Shown: in pieces, positions 36,939-64,000 of the stretch | How the letters are laid out: every line of letters begins with the position of its first letter | Numbering within the stretch: position 1 is the first letter of the stretch | The notes under the pieces: model-generated | Told to the model about the DNA's origin: nothing | The model's input: only the letters and a program-made list of their open reading frames with translations | Database searches by the model: none | Origin: Psychroserpens ponticola | Lineage (GTDB): Bacteria; Bacteroidota; Bacteroidia; Flavobacteriales; Flavobacteriaceae | Direction: 5' to 3' | Assembly: GCF_023556315.2 (NCBI RefSeq) | Contig: NZ_CP116221.1 | Coordinates: forward strand, 434,001-498,000 | Length of the DNA: 64,000 nucleotides | Made by a program: the position numbers and the translations under genes

Positions 36939-38372
36939 TTAATATCCAACAGCCTCACCAATTAAAGTGGCACTTGTGCAATCTAAAACTTTAACTTTAA
37001 CTAATTCTCCAACCTTGAAATTTTCCTTAGGAAATACAGCTACAATGTTTTGGGATGTTTTTCCAGACCATTGGTCGTTTGATTTTTTTGATTCTCGCTC
37101 AATAAGGACTTCAACTTCTGTGTTGAGATATTTTTTAATTTGAATGGCACCATGCTCACGTTGTAATTGTACAATTTCAGCAAGGCGTCGTTTCTTTGTG
37201 TCTTCAGTTACATCGTCTTCCAATTTGCGTTCTGCCATAGTTCCTGGACGTTCAGAATACATATACATAAAACCAAAGTTGTATTTCACATACTCCATTA
37301 AACTTAAAGTATCTTGATGATCTTGTTCTGTTTCAGTCGGAAAACCTGCAATTAAGTCCTGACTAATAGAACATTCTGGAAGGATACGTCTTATGTTGTC
37401 AATGAGATTAAAATAGTCTTCTCTTGTGTGTAAGCGGTTCATTTCTTTTAAAATACGATTACTTCCGCTTTGAACGGGTAAGTGAATGTGTTTACATATA
37501 TTATCAAATTTCGTCATGGTTTTTATCACATCCAATGTCAAATCTTGCGGATTACTGGTAGAAAAACGAATACGCATTTTTGGTTGAGCTTTAGCACATA
37601 ATTCTAATAGCTGTGAAAAATTTATAGCTGTTGCTTTTTGTAAATCACTCGCTTTTGAAAAATCTTTTTTGAGTCCGCCACCATACCATAAATAGCTGTC
37701 TACATTTTGACCTAAAAGTGTAATTTCTTTAAAGCCTTTATTCCATAAATCATTAACTTCTTCAATAATGCTGTGAGGATCACGACTACGTTCGCGACCT
37801 CTGGTAAAAGGTACTACGCAAAATGTACACATGTTATCACAGCCACGAGTTATAGAAACTAAAGCTGAAACACCGTTGCTGTTTAATCGAACTGGCGAAA
37901 TGTCGCCATAGGTTTCTTCTTTTGAAAGCACAACATTTATAGCATCTCGACCATCATCAACTTCGGCTAAAAGGTTAGGTAAATCTTTATAGGCATCTGG
38001 ACCAACGACTAAATCAACAATTTTTTCTTCTTCTAAAAATTTAGTTTTTAAACGTTCAGCCATACAACCTAAAACACCAACTTTCATTTTTGGGTTTATA
38101 CGTTTTACTGCATTGTATTTTTCTAATCGTTTTCTTACTGTTTGTTCAGCCTTGTCACGTATAGAGCAGGTGTTTACAAGTACCAAATCAGCGTCTTCTA
38201 GGTTTTGTGTGGTGTTAAATCCCTGTTCAGACAATATTGAAGCTACTATTTCACTATCGCTAAAATTCATGGCACAGCCATAACTTTCAATAAAAAGTTT
38301 ACGACTATTTTCTTGTTTAGCTTCGAGAAAAAGGGATTCTCCTTGCTTGTTTTCGTCAATTGTTTTTTTCAT
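36939..38372 (-). CDS. miaB: tRNA methylthiotransferase MiaB
   Basis: Radical-SAM enzyme that adds a methylthio group to i6A37 of tRNAs reading UNN codons. The start at 38372 (MKKTIDENKQGES) is preferred over one 21 bp upstream by comparison with the usual flavobacterial N-terminus. Length 477 residues. The auxiliary cluster Cys are C33, C69 and C103; the radical-SAM cluster is C178-x3-C182-x2-C185 (RGCDNMCTFC). A C-terminal TRAM domain is present (EVLIERESKK to TLIGEAVGY). It leads the operon that continues to secG; a two-part promoter lies upstream. Confidence 0.97.
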   Translation of the reverse strand: MKKTIDENKQGESLFLEAKQENSRKLFIESYGCAMNFSDSEIVASILSEQGFNTTQNLEDADLVLVNTCSIRDKAEQTVRKRLEKYNAVKRINPKMKVGVLGCMAERLKTKFLEEEKIVDLVVGPDAYKDLPNLLAEVDDGRDAINVVLSKEETYGDISPVRLNSNGVSALVSITRGCDNMCTFCVVPFTRGRERSRDPHSIIEEVNDLWNKGFKEITLLGQNVDSYLWYGGGLKKDFSKASDLQKATAINFSQLLELCAKAQPKMRIRFSTSNPQDLTLDVIKTMTKFDNICKHIHLPVQSGSNRILKEMNRLHTREDYFNLIDNIRRILPECSISQDLIAGFPTETEQDHQDTLSLMEYVKYNFGFMYMYSERPGTMAERKLEDDVTEDTKKRRLAEIVQLQREHGAIQIKKYLNTEVEVLIERESKKSNDQWSGKTSQNIVAVFPKENFKVGELVKVKVLDCTSATLIGEAVGY

Positions 38373-38432
38373 AGGTGATTTTAGCTCCAGCAAACTTCCA
38401 ATTATAATAATGATGCTGATTCAATAAGCATG

Positions 38433-38465
38433 CAAAGATACGATATTTTTGAAAAATATGACAAA
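38433..38465 (-). promoter_or_regulatory. Bacteroidota-type promoter for the miaB-to-secG operon
   Basis: On the minus strand TTTG (38462-38465) is followed after 21 bp by TATCTTTG (38433-38440), a match to the TTG/TAnnTTTG pattern. The predicted leader to the miaB ATG is about 55 nt. Confidence 0.55.
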
Positions 38466-38499
38466 GTGGCAGTGCTATAATTTTCTAAATAAGAATAAT

Positions 38500-38507
38500 T
38501 ACATTTG
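38500..38507 (+). promoter_or_regulatory. Candidate -7 box for the membrane protein at 38531
   Basis: TACATTTG matches TAnnTTTG, 23 bp before the ATG. No -33 TTG is seen at the usual spacing. It is divergent from the miaB promoter. Confidence 0.4.
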
Positions 38508-38530
38508 AGGAACGAATCAATCTATTACAA

Positions 38531-39280
38531 ATGGCATTTCAAAATATTCAAAATAAAATTAAAAGTTCTCAAAAATTAGATTTTGGGAATATACTTGACC
38601 TTTCTATTAAACTATTTAAAGAGGTTTGGTTAAAAGGAGTTTTAATGATTTTAATTACGATGGTTTTTGGAGGTGTTATCGCTATTTTATTTGTGTCTAT
38701 TGGTCTAATTCCAAACCCTTATGATGTTGCAGGAAGTGAAGCGTTAAATTTAACAACCTATTATGCTAAAAGTGCATTTAATAATTTACCTCAAACAATT
38801 GTCGTTAGTCCTGTGGTTTTTGGAATGTTAGCTGGTTTTTATAGAATTTGTAAGCAAGTTGATTTAAAGGAGTCTCAAGACGATGATATATTTTATTTTT
38901 TTAAAGGTGATAATGTTAGAAAGGTATTAATGCTTGGTCTCATATACTCAATAATTGCTACTGTTGCACAAGCGTTATTTTTATTACCTTATATATATGT
39001 CTTCATTCCTTTATCATTTTTTGCGGTTGTTTTTGCTCATAATCCAGAATTGAGTGAAACAGAAATTGTTAAACTAAGCTTTAGTTTAGGGAATAAGAAA
39101 TGGTTTTTAACCTTCGGATTAATGTTTATTACTGGGATTTTAGGCATGCTTGGTATTATCGCTTGTGGAATAGGCGTTATATTCACTATTTCAATAGTTT
39201 ACCTACCAGTCTATTTTATATATCGTGAAGTTGTAGGTTTTGAAGATCATGATGAAATCAAATACATTGGCAGTGAATAA
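38531..39280 (+). CDS. Multi-pass membrane protein of unknown function
   Basis: A 249-residue integral membrane protein with about five or six spans, preceded by a short polar N-terminus (IQNKIKSSQKLDFGNILDLSIKLF). Proteins of this type in flavobacteria are sometimes labelled beta-carotene monooxygenase; nothing in this sequence (no four-His iron site) supports that name. Charged loops hold FKGDNVRKVL and NPELSETEIVKLSFSLGNKKW. It stands alone, divergent from miaB and 53 bp before a small lipoprotein gene. Confidence 0.75.
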   Translation: MAFQNIQNKIKSSQKLDFGNILDLSIKLFKEVWLKGVLMILITMVFGGVIAILFVSIGLIPNPYDVAGSEALNLTTYYAKSAFNNLPQTIVVSPVVFGMLAGFYRICKQVDLKESQDDDIFYFFKGDNVRKVLMLGLIYSIIATVAQALFLLPYIYVFIPLSFFAVVFAHNPELSETEIVKLSFSLGNKKWFLTFGLMFITGILGMLGIIACGIGVIFTISIVYLPVYFIYREVVGFEDHDEIKYIGSE

Positions 39281-39333
39281 GGAATTTAACGCAACCATTT
39301 GTTTGTTTGTACATCTAAATAAAAATTGATGTT

Positions 39334-39777
39334 ATGAAATTATCTAAAATTAGTATGGCTTTAATCTGTTTCCCGTTATTATTGATGAATACGCAATGTG
39401 ATGAAGATGATGACTTTCAAGTTCGTAATTGTGGTCAAACAGTCATTATTGATAATGCGTTTTATGAATCTGCAATTTCAGGAGATTATGCATTAGTTGG
39501 TTTTGAAATTATTGAAGATTGCTTAACCATTGAAGTTTCAGCAAGTGGATGTGATGGCGAGTCATGGAGTATGGTTTTAGTTGACTCAGGAGCTGTTGCT
39601 GAATCATCACCAGAACAGCGTTATTTAAAGTTTGTATTTACAAATGAGGAAGCATGTTTGGCAGTGTTTAGTCAGAGTCGTGTATTTGATCTTTCAGGAT
39701 TAAGAGTTGATGGCTCAAATGAAATAGTTTTGAATATTGAAGGTGTTCCAGATCCTATTAATTATTTATATCCATAA
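39334..39777 (+). CDS. Small Cys-containing lipoprotein of unknown function
   Basis: A 147-residue predicted lipoprotein. The signal peptide has the lipobox MNTQC with Cys23, then an acidic stretch EDDDDF. Four further Cys (in NCGQ, EDCLT, SGCDG and EACLA) suggest two disulfides in the exported domain. The rest is predicted beta-rich with no recognised family. It is followed by topA with an independent promoter. Confidence 0.7.
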   Translation: MKLSKISMALICFPLLLMNTQCDEDDDFQVRNCGQTVIIDNAFYESAISGDYALVGFEIIEDCLTIEVSASGCDGESWSMVLVDSGAVAESSPEQRYLKFVFTNEEACLAVFSQSRVFDLSGLRVDGSNEIVLNIEGVPDPINYLYP

Positions 39778-59293: not shown

Positions 59294-60601
59294 ATGTTTA
59301 ATTTAAATTCTTATCTTACGAATGAACACGGAAACGAACACATTTTAGAACACAGTTTGTCAAACAAGAAGAAATTTACTGTCCCCAAAATTTATTCCTC
59401 TAACGGAAATTTGAACAAGCGTTGGTACGTCTATTACTCCTATCGAAATCCTGAATCTGGTATACTCCAACGTATGAAAAATGTCTACGGTGGTGCAAAT
59501 AGATATAATACAAAAGAAGATCGACTTACTATTTTAAGTATTTATAGAGTTAAGCTTTTAAGTTTATTAAATGAGGGTTTTAATCCCTTTGAAGATAATA
59601 CTGCACGTTATTTAAATCGTGAGGATAAGACACTAAATCCAATGAAGAACACTAATAAAGTGCCTGAAGTTGAATTAATGATTAAGCCAAAAGTTTCCGT
59701 TTTATCTTATAAAGTAGCCTTTACAAAAGGGTTGAAGTACAAGGAAAAGCTAATAAGTGATACTACAAGACGTAGTTATGAAAATCGCTTAAAAAACTTT
59801 CTTCTTTGGGTTGAAAAGCATCATCCAGAACTAAAGGCGATTACCGATATTGACAAGAAAGTGGTCATGGATTTTTTAAATCATATTTTAGACCTAACTA
59901 GTCCTAGAAACCGTAATAATTATCGAACTGATTTAAGTAGTATTATGCAGGCGTTAGAGGATAATGATATTATCTCGTCCAACTTTATTAAAAAGATACC
60001 TGTTTTAAAATCTACACCACAACGAAATAAAACTTACTCAAAGGAGCAACAGAAGGATATATTTGAACATTTGGAGAAAACAGATAAAACCTTATTGCTC
60101 TTTATAAAATTTATTTCTTATAATTTTTTGAGACCTATAGAAGTCTGTAGATTACGAGTTGGTGATTTAGATATACATCATAAGCGCATTCAATTTAGAG
60201 CCAAGAATAGTCCTTTAAAGACTAAAATCATACCTGATTTATTGCTGAATGATTTGCCTGATCTCTCGAAACTAAATAAAGAACATAATTTGTTTACTCC
60301 TGATGGTATAGGAGGTGTTTGGGAGTCCGAGTTAAGTAACAAGCGGGATTACTTTTCAAAACGGTTCAAGCGTATTATCAAGGACCCATTTAATTTGGGG
60401 GCAGATTATGGGTTGTATAGCTTTAGACATACATATATTACAAAATTATATCGCGAGTTAGTCAAGGGGTCGTCACCATTCGAAGCTAAAAGTAAATTGA
60501 TGCAGATTACAGGACACTCTTCAATGACAGCACTTGAAAAATATTTACGTGATATTGATGCCGAGTTTCCTGATGATTATTCTGAATTAATAAAATCTTA
60601 A
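59294..60601 (+). CDS. Tyrosine recombinase (site-specific integrase)
   Basis: A 435-residue phage-type integrase. N-terminal region about 1-130 (arm-type), a SAM-like core-binding domain (about 135-230; SDTTRRSYENRLKNFLLWVEKHHP), and the catalytic domain from about 245. The active-site residues are Arg280 (NFLRPIEVCRL), Arg378 (YSFRHT, with Tyr375 in place of the usual His of HxxR), His408 (GHSS) and Tyr417 (EKYLR). It lies 55 bp after an initiator tRNA, a classic place for integration. It is followed at 10 bp and then 16 bp by two further genes in the same direction. The 5' end abuts a terminator T-run, so its expression is likely low or uses an internal signal. Confidence 0.9.
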   Translation: MFNLNSYLTNEHGNEHILEHSLSNKKKFTVPKIYSSNGNLNKRWYVYYSYRNPESGILQRMKNVYGGANRYNTKEDRLTILSIYRVKLLSLLNEGFNPFEDNTARYLNREDKTLNPMKNTNKVPEVELMIKPKVSVLSYKVAFTKGLKYKEKLISDTTRRSYENRLKNFLLWVEKHHPELKAITDIDKKVVMDFLNHILDLTSPRNRNNYRTDLSSIMQALEDNDIISSNFIKKIPVLKSTPQRNKTYSKEQQKDIFEHLEKTDKTLLLFIKFISYNFLRPIEVCRLRVGDLDIHHKRIQFRAKNSPLKTKIIPDLLLNDLPDLSKLNKEHNLFTPDGIGGVWESELSNKRDYFSKRFKRIIKDPFNLGADYGLYSFRHTYITKLYRELVKGSSPFEAKSKLMQITGHSSMTALEKYLRDIDAEFPDDYSELIKS

Positions 60602-60610
60602 GTTTGTATT

Positions 60611-61288
60611 TTGGAAAAGCCTTTAAAAGATAAACACAGTGAATTAATACATAGATTGTATAAACCACTCATATTTTACTTTCCTCGAAAGATCTGGGCT
60701 GATCTGGATGGCATGTGGATGGATAAAAAGTTCGATACCGTGTTCAATACTGTTATTCTAATGCGTGAGAATGGAGATAATTATATCCTTGATAATGATG
60801 CCTCCAGTTTGTATTTATTGAGTAAAGCTTCCGCGTTGGCTGACAATATTTATGAACTTTTAGATTTGAAAGCCAAGTTAAGCCCTGAAGCTTTCAGTTT
60901 TTTATGTGAAAGATATTCTTTAAGCGTAGCATTTTATAAACATGTATCAAATTGGATGGTAGAGCATGTTAAACACGATATTCCTGACTGTAGTGAAGAA
61001 ACTATAAATTCATTTGGGATTCAGAAAGTAGCATTTACTGAACATTGGGACTATATTGAAAAACATTTTTTGATTCCAAAACATATAGAAAACTATTTTG
61101 ATAGTGCTCAATTGAATACTCAAGATATAGTAAAAATACCTGATTTCATAACTGGTGATCAGTCACAGACAGAACGTATATTTGAGAAGTTGGCTAAACC
61201 TATAAAAAACAAAAAGAAAGTGCTTATTACAGAAGATGAGGCAGAAAAACTCCTTTTAAAAACTATATTTAACGTACGATTAGAGTAA
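60611..61288 (+). CDS. Hypothetical protein of the integrase operon (225 aa)
   Basis: A 225-residue mostly helical protein with no signal peptide, span or family I can name. The start is TTG at 60611, 10 bp after the integrase stop; the next ATG would remove 35 residues. Segments such as FYFPRKIWADLDGMWMDKKFDTVFNTVILMREN and a basic C-terminal stretch (KPIKNKKKVLITEDEAEKLLLKT) could bind nucleic acid or protein, but this is only a guess. Position in a three-gene operon with a recombinase and an RHH-like protein suggests an accessory recombination role. Confidence 0.7.
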   Translation: MEKPLKDKHSELIHRLYKPLIFYFPRKIWADLDGMWMDKKFDTVFNTVILMRENGDNYILDNDASSLYLLSKASALADNIYELLDLKAKLSPEAFSFLCERYSLSVAFYKHVSNWMVEHVKHDIPDCSEETINSFGIQKVAFTEHWDYIEKHFLIPKHIENYFDSAQLNTQDIVKIPDFITGDQSQTERIFEKLAKPIKNKKKVLITEDEAEKLLLKTIFNVRLE

Positions 61289-61303
61289 TCTAAACTGAAA
61301 TAT

Positions 61304-61846
61304 ATGACTAATAAAAAATCAATTACGGATGAAGATGCAACGCTAAATTTTAGAGTGCCGAAATCATTAAAAGCGACAATTGTTGCTAAGGCCGAAATAG
61401 AAAAAATAACTAGTTCTAAATATCTGCGTAATTTATTAGAGTCAGTACATAATGGAAGTTATTGTCACCTGGATAAGTTGAAATCTGAACGTGAAGACTT
61501 TTTGTTTTCAAAAGAGTTTTTACAACTGATAGTTTGGATTTATAGAAAACGTGAAAATAATAGTCGTGAAGTTGATAAAAATGATTTAGATAGTTATGTT
61601 AAGACATTAAAAAGAACTGAGAATTTTCTTCCTAAAAATTTAGTATTTGAGCTTGATAAGGTGCTAAATAATTTGCTTGTAGTTAGAGTTAGTAAAGGAT
61701 ATGATGGAGATCGTTTTGATTTTCCTAAGAACTACAGTGATGACAAAAAATTCAATTACGAAAAAGTAGAAAAGTTTCTATTGGATGAAAACATATTGGA
61801 AGCCTTTATTGAAAGAGGAGAGGTTAATATAACTAATATTTTTTAA
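61304..61846 (+). CDS. Ribbon-helix-helix-like protein of the integrase operon
   Basis: A 180-residue protein. The N-terminal part (about 9-45; LNFRVPKSLKATIVAKAEIEK then SSKYLRNLLES) has the beta-strand plus two-helix pattern of ribbon-helix-helix DNA-binding proteins, as in mobilisation accessory proteins. The C-terminal 130 residues are helical, charged and unrecognised. It starts 16 bp after the 225-aa gene. A cluster of TGTGATA motifs begins 41 bp after its stop and could be its binding sites; RHH proteins commonly bind such tandem repeats. Recombination or mobilisation accessory factor is an inference. Confidence 0.65.
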   Translation: MTNKKSITDEDATLNFRVPKSLKATIVAKAEIEKITSSKYLRNLLESVHNGSYCHLDKLKSEREDFLFSKEFLQLIVWIYRKRENNSREVDKNDLDSYVKTLKRTENFLPKNLVFELDKVLNNLLVVRVSKGYDGDRFDFPKNYSDDKKFNYEKVEKFLLDENILEAFIERGEVNITNIF

Positions 61847-62247: not shown

Positions 62248-62472
62248 TTAATGAGCAATACAAACATTTTTTTTCAGAATAGTATTTTGCTGTACTAAGG
62301 TACTGTATTTTCTTAACCAATAGGAGATAGTTGTTCTGGGAACGTCATATTTTTTAGAAGCTTGGTTATTGGATAATTGTCCGCTAAGGATTTGGTCAAC
62401 GACTAAAAGTTTAGTCTCTAAAGTTGCTTTTTGATAGCTTTTTTTTCGCCAGTGTTCATTATGTGTTTTCAT
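62248..62472 (-). pseudogene. Transposase helix-turn-helix remnant
   Basis: A 74-codon frame whose first 58 codons match the N-terminus of IS-type transposase OrfA proteins (EHWRKKSYQKATLETKLLVVDQIL and the HTH NNQASKKYDVPRTTISYWLRKYST). After LKKN the family pattern (an acidic coiled coil) is replaced by CIAH and a stop, and no catalytic DDE part was found downstream. It is therefore probably a truncated remnant; a short stand-alone HTH regulator is the less likely alternative. Confidence 0.55.
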
Positions 62473-62544
62473 AAGTGACTGTAATTAATTGCTTAATTTT
62501 TAGTCAACCTATTTCAGGAAAATTCATTTGCCGATTGACTGGTG

Positions 62545-62672
62545 AACGTGTTCGTGTATGGTTTGTTGCGATTGGCACTAAGATAACAAAAAGGAACAGC
62601 GTTTAGGAAATTCGCCAGAATTTCCCAAGAAGTCTTTAAACACCATCAAGCAATTAATTATACACGGTGTTG
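62545..62672. repeat. Imperfect-palindrome repeat, copy A
   Basis: The left end has AACGTGTT (62545-62552) then GTGTATGGTTTGTTGCG (62554-62570). The right end has the shared 21-bp block at 62652-62672, ending AATTATACACGGTGTTG. The right end read backwards pairs with the left arm (GTGTAT..TT..TTGC), giving a large hairpin, with a smaller 7-bp hairpin inside (62606-62612 with 62619-62625). Both ends recur in copy B at 63686-63763. Confidence 0.75.
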
Positions 62673-62986
62673 GCAACTGGTTTTTGTTTTTTTAATTCGG
62701 AAAACGAAAGTTTTAAAATATAAAAGCATTAAAAATACAAGCTAAACATCCTTGTTTTTTATCAAATTTAGTCACCTTTATTAGACTTAATCTTTTTGTT
62801 AAAGTAGATCTATACAAATGGCTCGATAATCCTTTTTCAAAGGAACACCACCACCAAATAAAAATACACAAGGGATTCTTTTTTAAAATTCGAAAATCTA
62901 ACCACGTCTTAATGTAAACTATATGATCCTATTTTTTCCGATGACGCACACTATGTATAGTGAAGTAAGTTGCGCTGAAAGTAAGC
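62673..62986. other. Non-coding gap between repeat A and GNAT pseudogene
   Basis: No gene could be supported. On the minus strand a frame open for about 68 codons ends at 62713-62715 but has no ATG or GTG start. Other frames are broken by many stops. The stretch may be decayed cassette DNA. Confidence 0.5.
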
Positions 62987-63147
62987 GATGAGTTCTTGGT
63001 TATCATCATTGTTTATATTATTAAATGCACTATGGTATTCTTTAGTTAAGGGGATTTGAAAATATTCTCTTGTTTACCCTAGCTTATCATCAGTAATCAT
63101 TTCTACAATTGCAGGAGCATCGGTTTTTTTGTTTTTCTAAATTCCAT
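62987..63147 (-). pseudogene. Decayed GNAT acetyltransferase (N-terminal part)
   Basis: Starting at the ATG 63147 the frame reads MEFRKTKK, then shifts at a run of seven A (T7 at 63124-63130 on plus). In the next frame it continues TDAPAIVEMITDDKLG, a TAA (63074-63076) at a position where homologues have Lys, then TREYFQIPLTKEYHSAF and NNDDNQELI. This is the standard GNAT N-terminus (family recalled as ..DAPAIVEMIADDKLGK.). Past 62987 the similarity stops and the acetyl-CoA motif is absent. A frameshift, a nonsense mutation and a 3' truncation make it non-functional. Confidence 0.65.
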
Positions 63148-63173
63148 ATATCATGTTTCTAGATTAAACTCTG

Positions 63174-63665
63174 CTAATTATGGTGCCTTCTTAAATGTTT
63201 TATTAATCCATTTTGGTCGTACTCAATTGACATTATTTGACTTGCAGTATTTTCAATAACTTTATCCATGTGAAACGGTTTAACCTTGGCTTTAATGGTG
63301 ATTTTTATAAAAGCTACATTTTTTCCTAGCATAATGTCATCAATAGATACTATATGATAATATACCTTATTTTGAAGTTTGTCGATCATTCCCTTTCTAA
63401 ATATTTCTTTATCGGTTATGATTACATTATACTTAATATGCTCATCAATAAAATCATCTGCAAAAAAGGATAAGAAGTAATCTATATCTTTTAAGTCACT
63501 ATGTGGTTGTTGCTTTGCACTATAAGCTTTAATGAAAGACTCGGTTTTTTTATGTAAATGAGGGTCTGTGCCATCTTGTGAGGATATACTATTAAGTTCT
63601 TTTTTTTGTCCAATTGCATTAAGGCTTATAATTAATGCAGAAACGAGTATTAATGTGTTTTTCAT
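63174..63665 (-). CDS. Exported NTF2/SnoaL-like domain protein
   Basis: A 163-residue protein with a signal peptide (about 1-19, LNAIGQ) and one cone-shaped NTF2/SnoaL-like domain: SFIKAYSAKQQPHSDLKDIDYFLSFFADDFIDEH, then KYNVIITDKEIFRKGMIDK and SIDDIMLGKNVAFIKITIKA. Such domains act as small-molecule binding or enzyme scaffolds; no active-site residues can be named. It lies between the GNAT pseudogene and repeat copy B, in the same direction as both GNAT frames. Confidence 0.75.
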   Translation of the reverse strand: MKNTLILVSALIISLNAIGQKKELNSISSQDGTDPHLHKKTESFIKAYSAKQQPHSDLKDIDYFLSFFADDFIDEHIKYNVIITDKEIFRKGMIDKLQNKVYYHIVSIDDIMLGKNVAFIKITIKAKVKPFHMDKVIENTASQIMSIEYDQNGLIKHLRRHHN

Positions 63666-63680
63666 TTAGTTTTTTTATGT

Positions 63681-63767
63681 CTTACAACGTGTTGTGTATG
63701 CTTAGTTGCGTGGTTAAGCGACTAAATTGCCTAAAACCAAGGAATTAATTATACACGGTGTTGTAAG
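63681..63767. repeat. Imperfect-palindrome repeat, copy B
   Basis: Outer ends CTTACAAC (63681-63688) and GTTGTAAG (63760-63767) are a perfect inverted repeat. Inside it are AACGTGTT (63686-63693), GTGTATGCTTAGTTGCG (63694-63710) and the 21-bp block shared with copy A (63743-63763). The two left arms differ at only 2 of 17 positions. The whole folds as a long hairpin. The GNAT gene that follows on the minus strand ends inside it. Confidence 0.8.
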
Positions 63768-64000
63768 GCGTAATTTTTTATCGTGAATTGTTCTTCAAAC
63801 CCCAATTTTAAATATAATCCTTTTCCCATATCAGATGATTGTAAAGTTATAAAATCACTATCTATTTTAATTGACTGATTAATTAAAAGCTTCATTATTT
63901 GCTCTGCATAACCTTTTTGCCTTTGTTGAGGTATAATACCAACAGAGTGAATGCCAGACACATTACCTGTCGTGTGTAAAATACCTGTTCCAACAGCTAT
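63749..64000 (-). CDS. GNAT N-acetyltransferase (5' end beyond the window)
   Basis: An open frame from the window edge to the stop at 63749, 83 codons visible. It contains the GNAT acetyl-CoA motif (SGIHSVGIIPQQRQKGYAEQIMKLLINQ) and the family's C-terminal LQSSDMGKGLYLKLGFEEQFTIKNY. The last six codons (ALQHRV) and the TAA lie within repeat copy B. The upstream 5' part, with the substrate-binding region, is outside the window. Substrate unknown. Confidence 0.85.
   Translation of the reverse strand: MAVGTGILHTTGNVSGIHSVGIIPQQRQKGYAEQIMKLLINQSIKIDSDFITLQSSDMGKGLYLKLGFEEQFTIKNYALQHRV

Follow-up and report, generated by a model that had tools for sequence, protein, structure and literature searches.

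The closest described relatives of the system treated here are the sedentary chromosomal integrons, or superintegrons, of the Vibrio type. These have hundreds of co-oriented cassettes, each with one open reading frame (ORF) and one recombination site, an integrase gene and an attI site at one end, a GTT junction and complementary cassette ends. The same layout, with an attI-like site, is found in the genome of Psychroserpens ponticola, of which the window, the whole stretch of 64,000 nucleotides analysed (positions 434,001 to 498,000 of contig NZ_CP116221.1, C1 in coordinates below), holds two repeat copies, A and B, near its end. Very probably, the repeats are attC-like and serve recombination in an integron-like system of gene cassettes in Flavobacteriaceae, with an adjacent integrase devoid of I2, the additional domain specific to the integron integrase (IntI). 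Unlike in the Vibrio type, the integrase lacks I2, has an extra N-terminal domain and is encoded in the direction of the cassettes; the R boxes, about 7 bp in canonical sites, differ between cassettes, the outer stem covers 14 positions and GTTRRRY cores are scarce.

Other known systems share single features with this one. Xer recombinases (XerA, XerC/D, XerH) have a like catalytic core; their task is the resolution of dimers at dif, on double-stranded DNA and with no cassettes involved. Reverse-orientation integrons of Spirochaetota also have intI reversed, but their integrases are classed as IntIs, and the additional domain, absent here, is a defining IntI characteristic in the accessible part of PMC9668308. 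The cluster of sites in the window, with no integrase of the I2-less family nearby, resembles clusters of attC sites lacking integron-integrases (CALIN), and a lone cassette at G|AT resembles the non-classical attG insertion named in a title cited in the accessible part of PMC11023631; here, unlike in both, the only candidate enzyme of the host genome is I2-less.

According to the accessible part of PMC7790495, I2 is necessary for IntI1 activity and is not found outside IntI proteins; intermediates are not available, and its causal role is without direct proof, since deletion abolishes function. Integrons have been listed for Bacteroidota (PMC8618304; PMC2426708), and the Bacteroidetes case of IntegronFinder 2.0 is a complete Salinibacter integron, beyond those of Chlorobi and Ignavibacteriae (PMC9024848). 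The literature searched, which excluded most subscription papers and all bioRxiv preprints, yielded no account of an integron integrase without I2, nor of large arrays in Flavobacteriaceae. The best reading is that the system is a variant of the integron kind, absent from that literature; it is not filed as an integron, because the defining feature I2 was examined and is absent. With hundreds of cassettes in a natural array next to such an enzyme, the need for I2 becomes directly testable; the array would also give access to a reservoir of genes in one of the major marine groups. This reservoir may have escaped notice because surveys pick IntI by the additional domain, as was done by profile in the survey of PMC8352920, as far as its accessible part goes.

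The main array and its cassette ends

The main array has 255 paired sites over about 262 kb (site starts C1:1,838,279 to 2,100,527) in a genome of 4,029,301 bases, assembled as one contig. Pairing covered the array strand of 400 kb, with 286 left motifs (up to 2 substitutions) and 267 right motifs (up to 1), GTT and AAC themselves being part of the search pattern; 31 unpaired left motifs were left out of the site count. The right-end motif is found 289 times on one strand and 9 times on the other in 320 kb of this region. Genome-wide, the 15-mer TTATACACGGTGTTG has 6 forward and 281 reverse matches at up to 2 mismatches; with its letters in reverse order it has 3 and 4.

Median spacing of the sites is 791 bases, and 252 of the 255 are 123–128 nt long. 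The other three measure 187–198 nt. The inner part of the site has no fewer than two coexisting forms, the TTGCTTGG type and the ACTGCGGAATTT type. The strict attC core GTTRRRY is present in 20/255 sites, in line with the first-pass annotation of the window, which had noted ends without this core, and RYYYAAC in 19/255. Rfam gave no family in three site-bearing loci.

In integrons the 3' core of a site is part of the next cassette. The complementary pair to be expected is therefore that of the two ends of an inter-site interval, not one within a site. This is the pattern of the array. The R' side of one site matches the R'' side of the next at frequencies of 0.81–0.95 at positions 3–8, 0.52 at position 9, 0 at position 10 and 0.74–0.90 at positions 11–13, while R' and R'' of the same site match near the shuffled level. 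Pairing of a cassette's own ends at positions 3–8 and 11–13 is seen in 187–242 of 254 cassettes, versus 83–175 with shuffled ends, and the complementarity spans 14 positions. R'+10, a position outside the search pattern, is A in 255/255 sites and stands opposite C in 222/254; this pair is a mismatch on the gene strand and a T.G wobble on the other strand. The same pattern is found in 84/92 matched ends from other species.

As regards bottom-strand selectivity, an integron trait, sites rebuilt with the cassette's own ends fold better opposite the gene strand in 243/251 cases, a preference of which only part would be structural, since shuffled sequences give 200/251. The consensus fold of 40 array sites shows 10 pairs, of which two have changes on both sides; it is of limited value, the outer stem being a feature of the circle and not of the array junction.

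The longest ORF lies on the site strand in 201 of the 248 cassettes of up to 3 kb (6 of the 254 being omitted), on the other strand in 28, and 19 have none of 40 amino acids (aa). It starts at a median of 30 nt from the crossover and stops at a median of 12 nt before AAC. Contents are varied: in 87 of the 187 cassette proteins of at least 60 aa, 90 Pfam families were matched, 73 of them in single proteins. TPR, MORN and ParE toxin families occur in two or three of the scanned proteins, and AbiGi, WapI, pentapeptide repeats and others in one; three defence-library families are represented. Among individual contents are two ParE-type toxins, AbiGi, a PD-T7-4-like defence protein, a WapI immunity protein and an alpha-L-fucosidase. 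The first-pass annotation had named in advance two outcomes that would speak against cassettes, copies always within one insertion sequence (IS) family or copies in this genome only; the sites flank varied genes, not confined to one IS family, and they are present in other genera.

Single sites also occur outside the array. At C1:3,023,525 a site closes a 957-bp unit. The unit starts at G|TTGTGCTTC, and the eight bases after the G equal its own R'' when this is reverse-complemented; the 3' end is at ...ACACAAAACAG|ATGTTTGG. The joined flanks are unbroken in 3 of 57 genomes, the own genome being among the 57 (G546, G553 and G554; 85–87% identity), and in all three congeners the empty point reads CTAAG|ATGTTT; most other congeners align to the left flank only and are uninformative. 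Gain or loss of a whole unit at G|AT without target duplication is the behaviour of integron enzymes at secondary (attG) sites, the consensus of which is GWT. A second lone site (C1:3,914,413) ends in ...ACACG|ATC, and a search for its left end did not find it. This site (L048) lies at the end of a GNAT gene, and the protein tail ...SLQQRV resembles ...ALQHRV of the GNAT protein in the window; the site seems to encode C-terminal tails.

The complementary interval ends, the single co-oriented ORFs and the lone cassette at a G|AT that is empty in congeners argue that the sites work like integron attC. On these features of the DNA, the case for a cassette array with attC-like sites is strong. The direction of the array may be opposed to that of replication, contrary to the rule for large chromosomal integrons in the accessible part of PMC11023631, as GC skew samples turn negative from about 1.4 Mb (C1, about 1.4–2.2 Mb), in noisy data.

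The adjacent recombinase

At the start of the array is a gene for a 391-aa tyrosine recombinase, which adjoins a predicted attI-like site (C1:1,837,533) with a 10-nt match to R'' of the first array site. Such a site beside the integrase gene is an integron trait, and the attI after the integrase agrees with the first site at 6/6 variable bases in 15 of 24 other loci with candidate sites. The gene lies on the cassette strand and does not point away from the cassettes. I2 is missing from the protein: the aligned gap between R260 and H319 has 57–60 residues in 111 of 112 I2-less proteins (42 in the remaining one), versus 100 in 20/20 canonical IntI. Scores fall below the cut-off both for the IntI model TIGR02249 (198 bits, cut-off 265) and for the NCBIfam XerA model NF040815 (209.8 bits, cut-off 220).

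Best matches in sequence and fold are archaeal XerA/Xer, in a whole-protein fold comparison that did not cover the extra N-terminal domain. When this domain was compared alone by Foldseek, XPB and SMARCAL1 HARP filled 8 of the first 9 rows, none of which reaches E 0.001; its model weakly resembles the DNA-recognition domains of these proteins. In a tree with 41 I2-less rows (the own protein and 40 drawn at random from those of at least 330 aa), canonical IntI make up a single clade (100/100). I2-less and Xer proteins are placed with uncertainty, on long branches and with 19 open forks, and the tree is therefore no proof of two origins. At least 6641 homologues were found at E 1e-30, from 8000 candidates scored, and some among the matches listed are named "site-specific tyrosine recombinase/integron integrase" by NCBI.

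Comparison of 53 loci, many short ones included, found the genes upstream of the integrase shared in one, that of Psychroserpens jangbogonensis (L074), with 87–94% identity. The gene preceding the integrase in both genomes is presumably gamma-glutamyltransferase-like, as named from its sequence, and this common neighbour makes the window genome probably a close relative of P. jangbogonensis.

The adjacent recombinase apparently moves the cassettes, to judge from its position, the attI match and a search for canonical IntI that found none. In the proposed mechanism a cassette would leave as a circle, its site folding from the strand opposite the genes, that with the T.G wobble at R+10. The recombinase would then join one strand, at G|TT, to one of three partners: attI, another site or, occasionally, a G|AT elsewhere. 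On the hypothesis that the N-terminal domain replaces I2, this HARP/XPB-like domain, perhaps also the longer outer stem of 14 positions, would take over the recognition of the folded site. In its widest form the proposal is a second invention of cassette capture in Bacteroidota, in which an I2-less recombinase of Xer lineage, with a HARP/XPB-like N-terminal domain for junction recognition, would act on folded single-stranded sites in arrays of superintegron size, overlooked because surveys define integron integrases by I2; we hold this tentatively, at somewhat less than an even chance.

Nearly an even chance is given to another account of the enzyme, in which I2 is replaced by the catalytic core, a host factor or double-strand recombination, and the N-terminal domain is ordinary arm-type DNA binding. 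Phage integrases commonly have N-terminal arm-binding domains, Xer-type cores are the best matches, and the HARP/XPB resemblance is below the level that would exclude a common arrangement. However, XPB and SMARCAL1 HARP predominate among the first Foldseek rows, albeit short of E 0.001, and the end complementarity and the wobble indicate a folded strand as substrate.

Other genomes and phages

A contig profile scan gave at least 590 relatives of the integrase, of which 80 were kept; all are Bacteroidota by title except one metagenome-assembled genome (MAG) of Ignavibacteria. In 17/80 the two own-type half-motifs are located downstream, on the strand of the integrase; in 0/80 they are downstream on the opposite strand, and in 3/80 upstream on one strand. 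The contig ends within 3 kb downstream of the integrase in 53/80 and within 3 kb upstream in 3/80, an excess such as repeats breaking assemblies would give.

Distant relatives in Robiginitalea (L111) and Flavobacterium (L125, L130, L132, L134) have other site sequences and the same cassette-end rule. The rule was examined in 26 loci picked for motifs or long downstream DNA, with the partner end sought within 260 nt. A partner end agreeing at 5 or more of 6 variable bases was found for 92/150 candidate sites (mean 7.0 and maximum 16 in 200 permutations), and at 6/6 for 80/150 (mean 1.6, maximum 5). By type, success was 57/78 for the own, 11/13 for the Robiginitalea and 24/59 for the Flavobacterium sites. 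The first-pass annotation had proposed an attC-like but different, little-described family of Bacteroidota, and the other genera, the varied genes and the 20/255 GTTRRRY cores support it.

Within the family, the integrase alignment is matched at E 1e-50 or better in 102 of 149 genomes, in some only over the catalytic part. The own-type left motif has at least 40 matches, and twice the control, in 7/149 (G000, which is the own genome, G436, G407, G432, G459, G528 and G535); most family genomes therefore have other site types, short arrays or none. Judged from these DNA comparisons, the site system appears native to Flavobacteriaceae. A Chitinophaga MAG (L145) has a 39% identical integrase with two candidate sites downstream, both with a 6-of-6 partner end, and arrays may extend past the family.

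It is improbable that a canonical, I2-bearing IntI, acting in trans or since lost, moves the array and that the adjacent recombinase has nothing to do with it. In favour of this is one attC of a Polaribacter phage recombined by IntI1: in the accessible part of PMC9892861, attC2 of phage P12002L is recombined as bottom strand and gives no recombinants as top strand, and attC1 failed. The canonical IntI model matched 0/149 family genomes, in a run with no control match; the same model is above cut-off in 105/395 phylum genomes, none of those matching being listed as own family. Against a canonical IntI stands also the position of the I2-less gene: in other genera too it adjoins an attI-like site and shares the strand of the array.

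The P12002L genome (L234) has an exact own-motif site near 39,122, with others near 38,035 and 38,879 in a motif scan, among which may be the sites tested in PMC9892861. In this lytic phage the region of about 38035–39670 has several motif sites beside DNA methyltransferase and Mom-like genes. Phages may take up cassettes from such arrays. A distant DNA search of phage records with one site gave no match.

Copies A and B and their surroundings

In the window the sites are read in the minus direction because the genes there lie on the minus strand. In gene direction the layout is ...NNNAAC-AAC-GTGTAT...ATACAC-AAACAC-GTTNNN..., with the following features.

62534..62684, minus: copy A, attC-like site that closes an outlying cluster when this is read in gene direction; alignment with 38 array sites
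62534..62547, minus: R' side of copy A, in gene direction GTTCACCAGTCAAT, as read from the sequence
between 62547 and 62546, minus: expected G|TT crossover of copy A, placed from the array and the lone cassette
62554..62559, minus: L' box of copy A, ATACAC in gene direction
62660..62665, minus: L'' box of copy A, GTGTAT in gene direction
62669..62682, minus: R'' side of copy A, with AAC at its end in gene direction
63669..63774, minus: copy B, short attC-like site (core 63686-63762), with a hairpin fold on the plus strand, aligned with array sites
63675..63688, minus: R' side of copy B, in gene direction GTTGTAAGACATAA
63694..63699, minus: L' box of copy B
63751..63756, minus: L'' box of copy B
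63760..63773, minus: R'' side of copy B, in gene direction GCCTTACAAC
62547..63687, minus: segment between both expected crossovers, with the layout of one cassette, as read from the sequence
63174..63665, minus: 163-aa ORF without a Pfam family, starting 22 bp inside the segment
63749..64000, minus: GNAT acetyltransferase ORF of the next cassette, open at the window end, its last codons within site B

As the first-pass annotation had described, the left end (AACGTGTT plus GTGTATGNTTNGTTGCG) is common to A and B, as is a 21-bp block, AATTAATTATACACGGTGTTG, which is identical and equally oriented in the two (repeat family D2, 26 nt, 96%), and a GNAT ORF ends inside B (stop side 63749; Pfam Acetyltransf_10, 25.3 bits, cut-off 23.6). 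Three of its other claims are not confirmed. Each copy was taken for a long imperfect hairpin; B is one on the plus strand only (-16.3 kcal/mol, z -3.86; minus strand z -0.58) and A is near shuffled sequences (z -1.04 and -0.61). A decayed GNAT was placed between the copies, where the translation of 62601-63170 reached a best E of 0.19 with 187 cassette proteins of the same genome and two GNATs, and the ORF called NTF2-like (63174-63665) has no Pfam match at E 0.001. In the window alone the 15-mer has 3 matches at up to 3 mismatches, which are weak proof because 23/100 shuffles equal them.

The ends of the B-to-A segment (GTTGTAAGAC versus reverse-complemented GTTGGCAACT) are non-complementary, and the segment is for this reason probably a rearranged remnant. 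Past the window end the cluster continues with same-direction sites, one at C1:500,840, whose R' core is damaged, and one at C1:501,438. A and B are two sites at the end of a small, outlying and partly decayed cassette cluster.

The fold of A, barely better than shuffles, and the solitary state of some copies would suit dispersed hairpins (terminators, or repeats like repetitive extragenic palindromes or miniature inverted-repeat transposable elements) multiplied without cassette recombination. Hairpins of this sort would match their own two ends in place, whereas the match is seen between the ends of the inter-site interval, and a whole gene-plus-site unit is cleanly present or absent; this explanation is very unlikely and was dropped. 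Least credible of all, and likewise dropped, is that A and B belong to the tyrosine recombinase of the window (59294-60601), only 2 kb away, since the main array lies 1.34 Mb off beside another recombinase and the Phage_integrase match of the window protein is barely above cut-off (27.4 versus 27.1 bits).

That 435-aa recombinase is followed by two ORFs (225 and 180 aa) for which neither Pfam nor NCBIfam gave a match, and the region 59294-61846 is possibly another integrative element beside the cassette cluster. At the cluster end, a 74-aa helix-turn-helix (HTH_psq) ORF at 62248-62472 on the minus strand is perhaps a transposase remnant.
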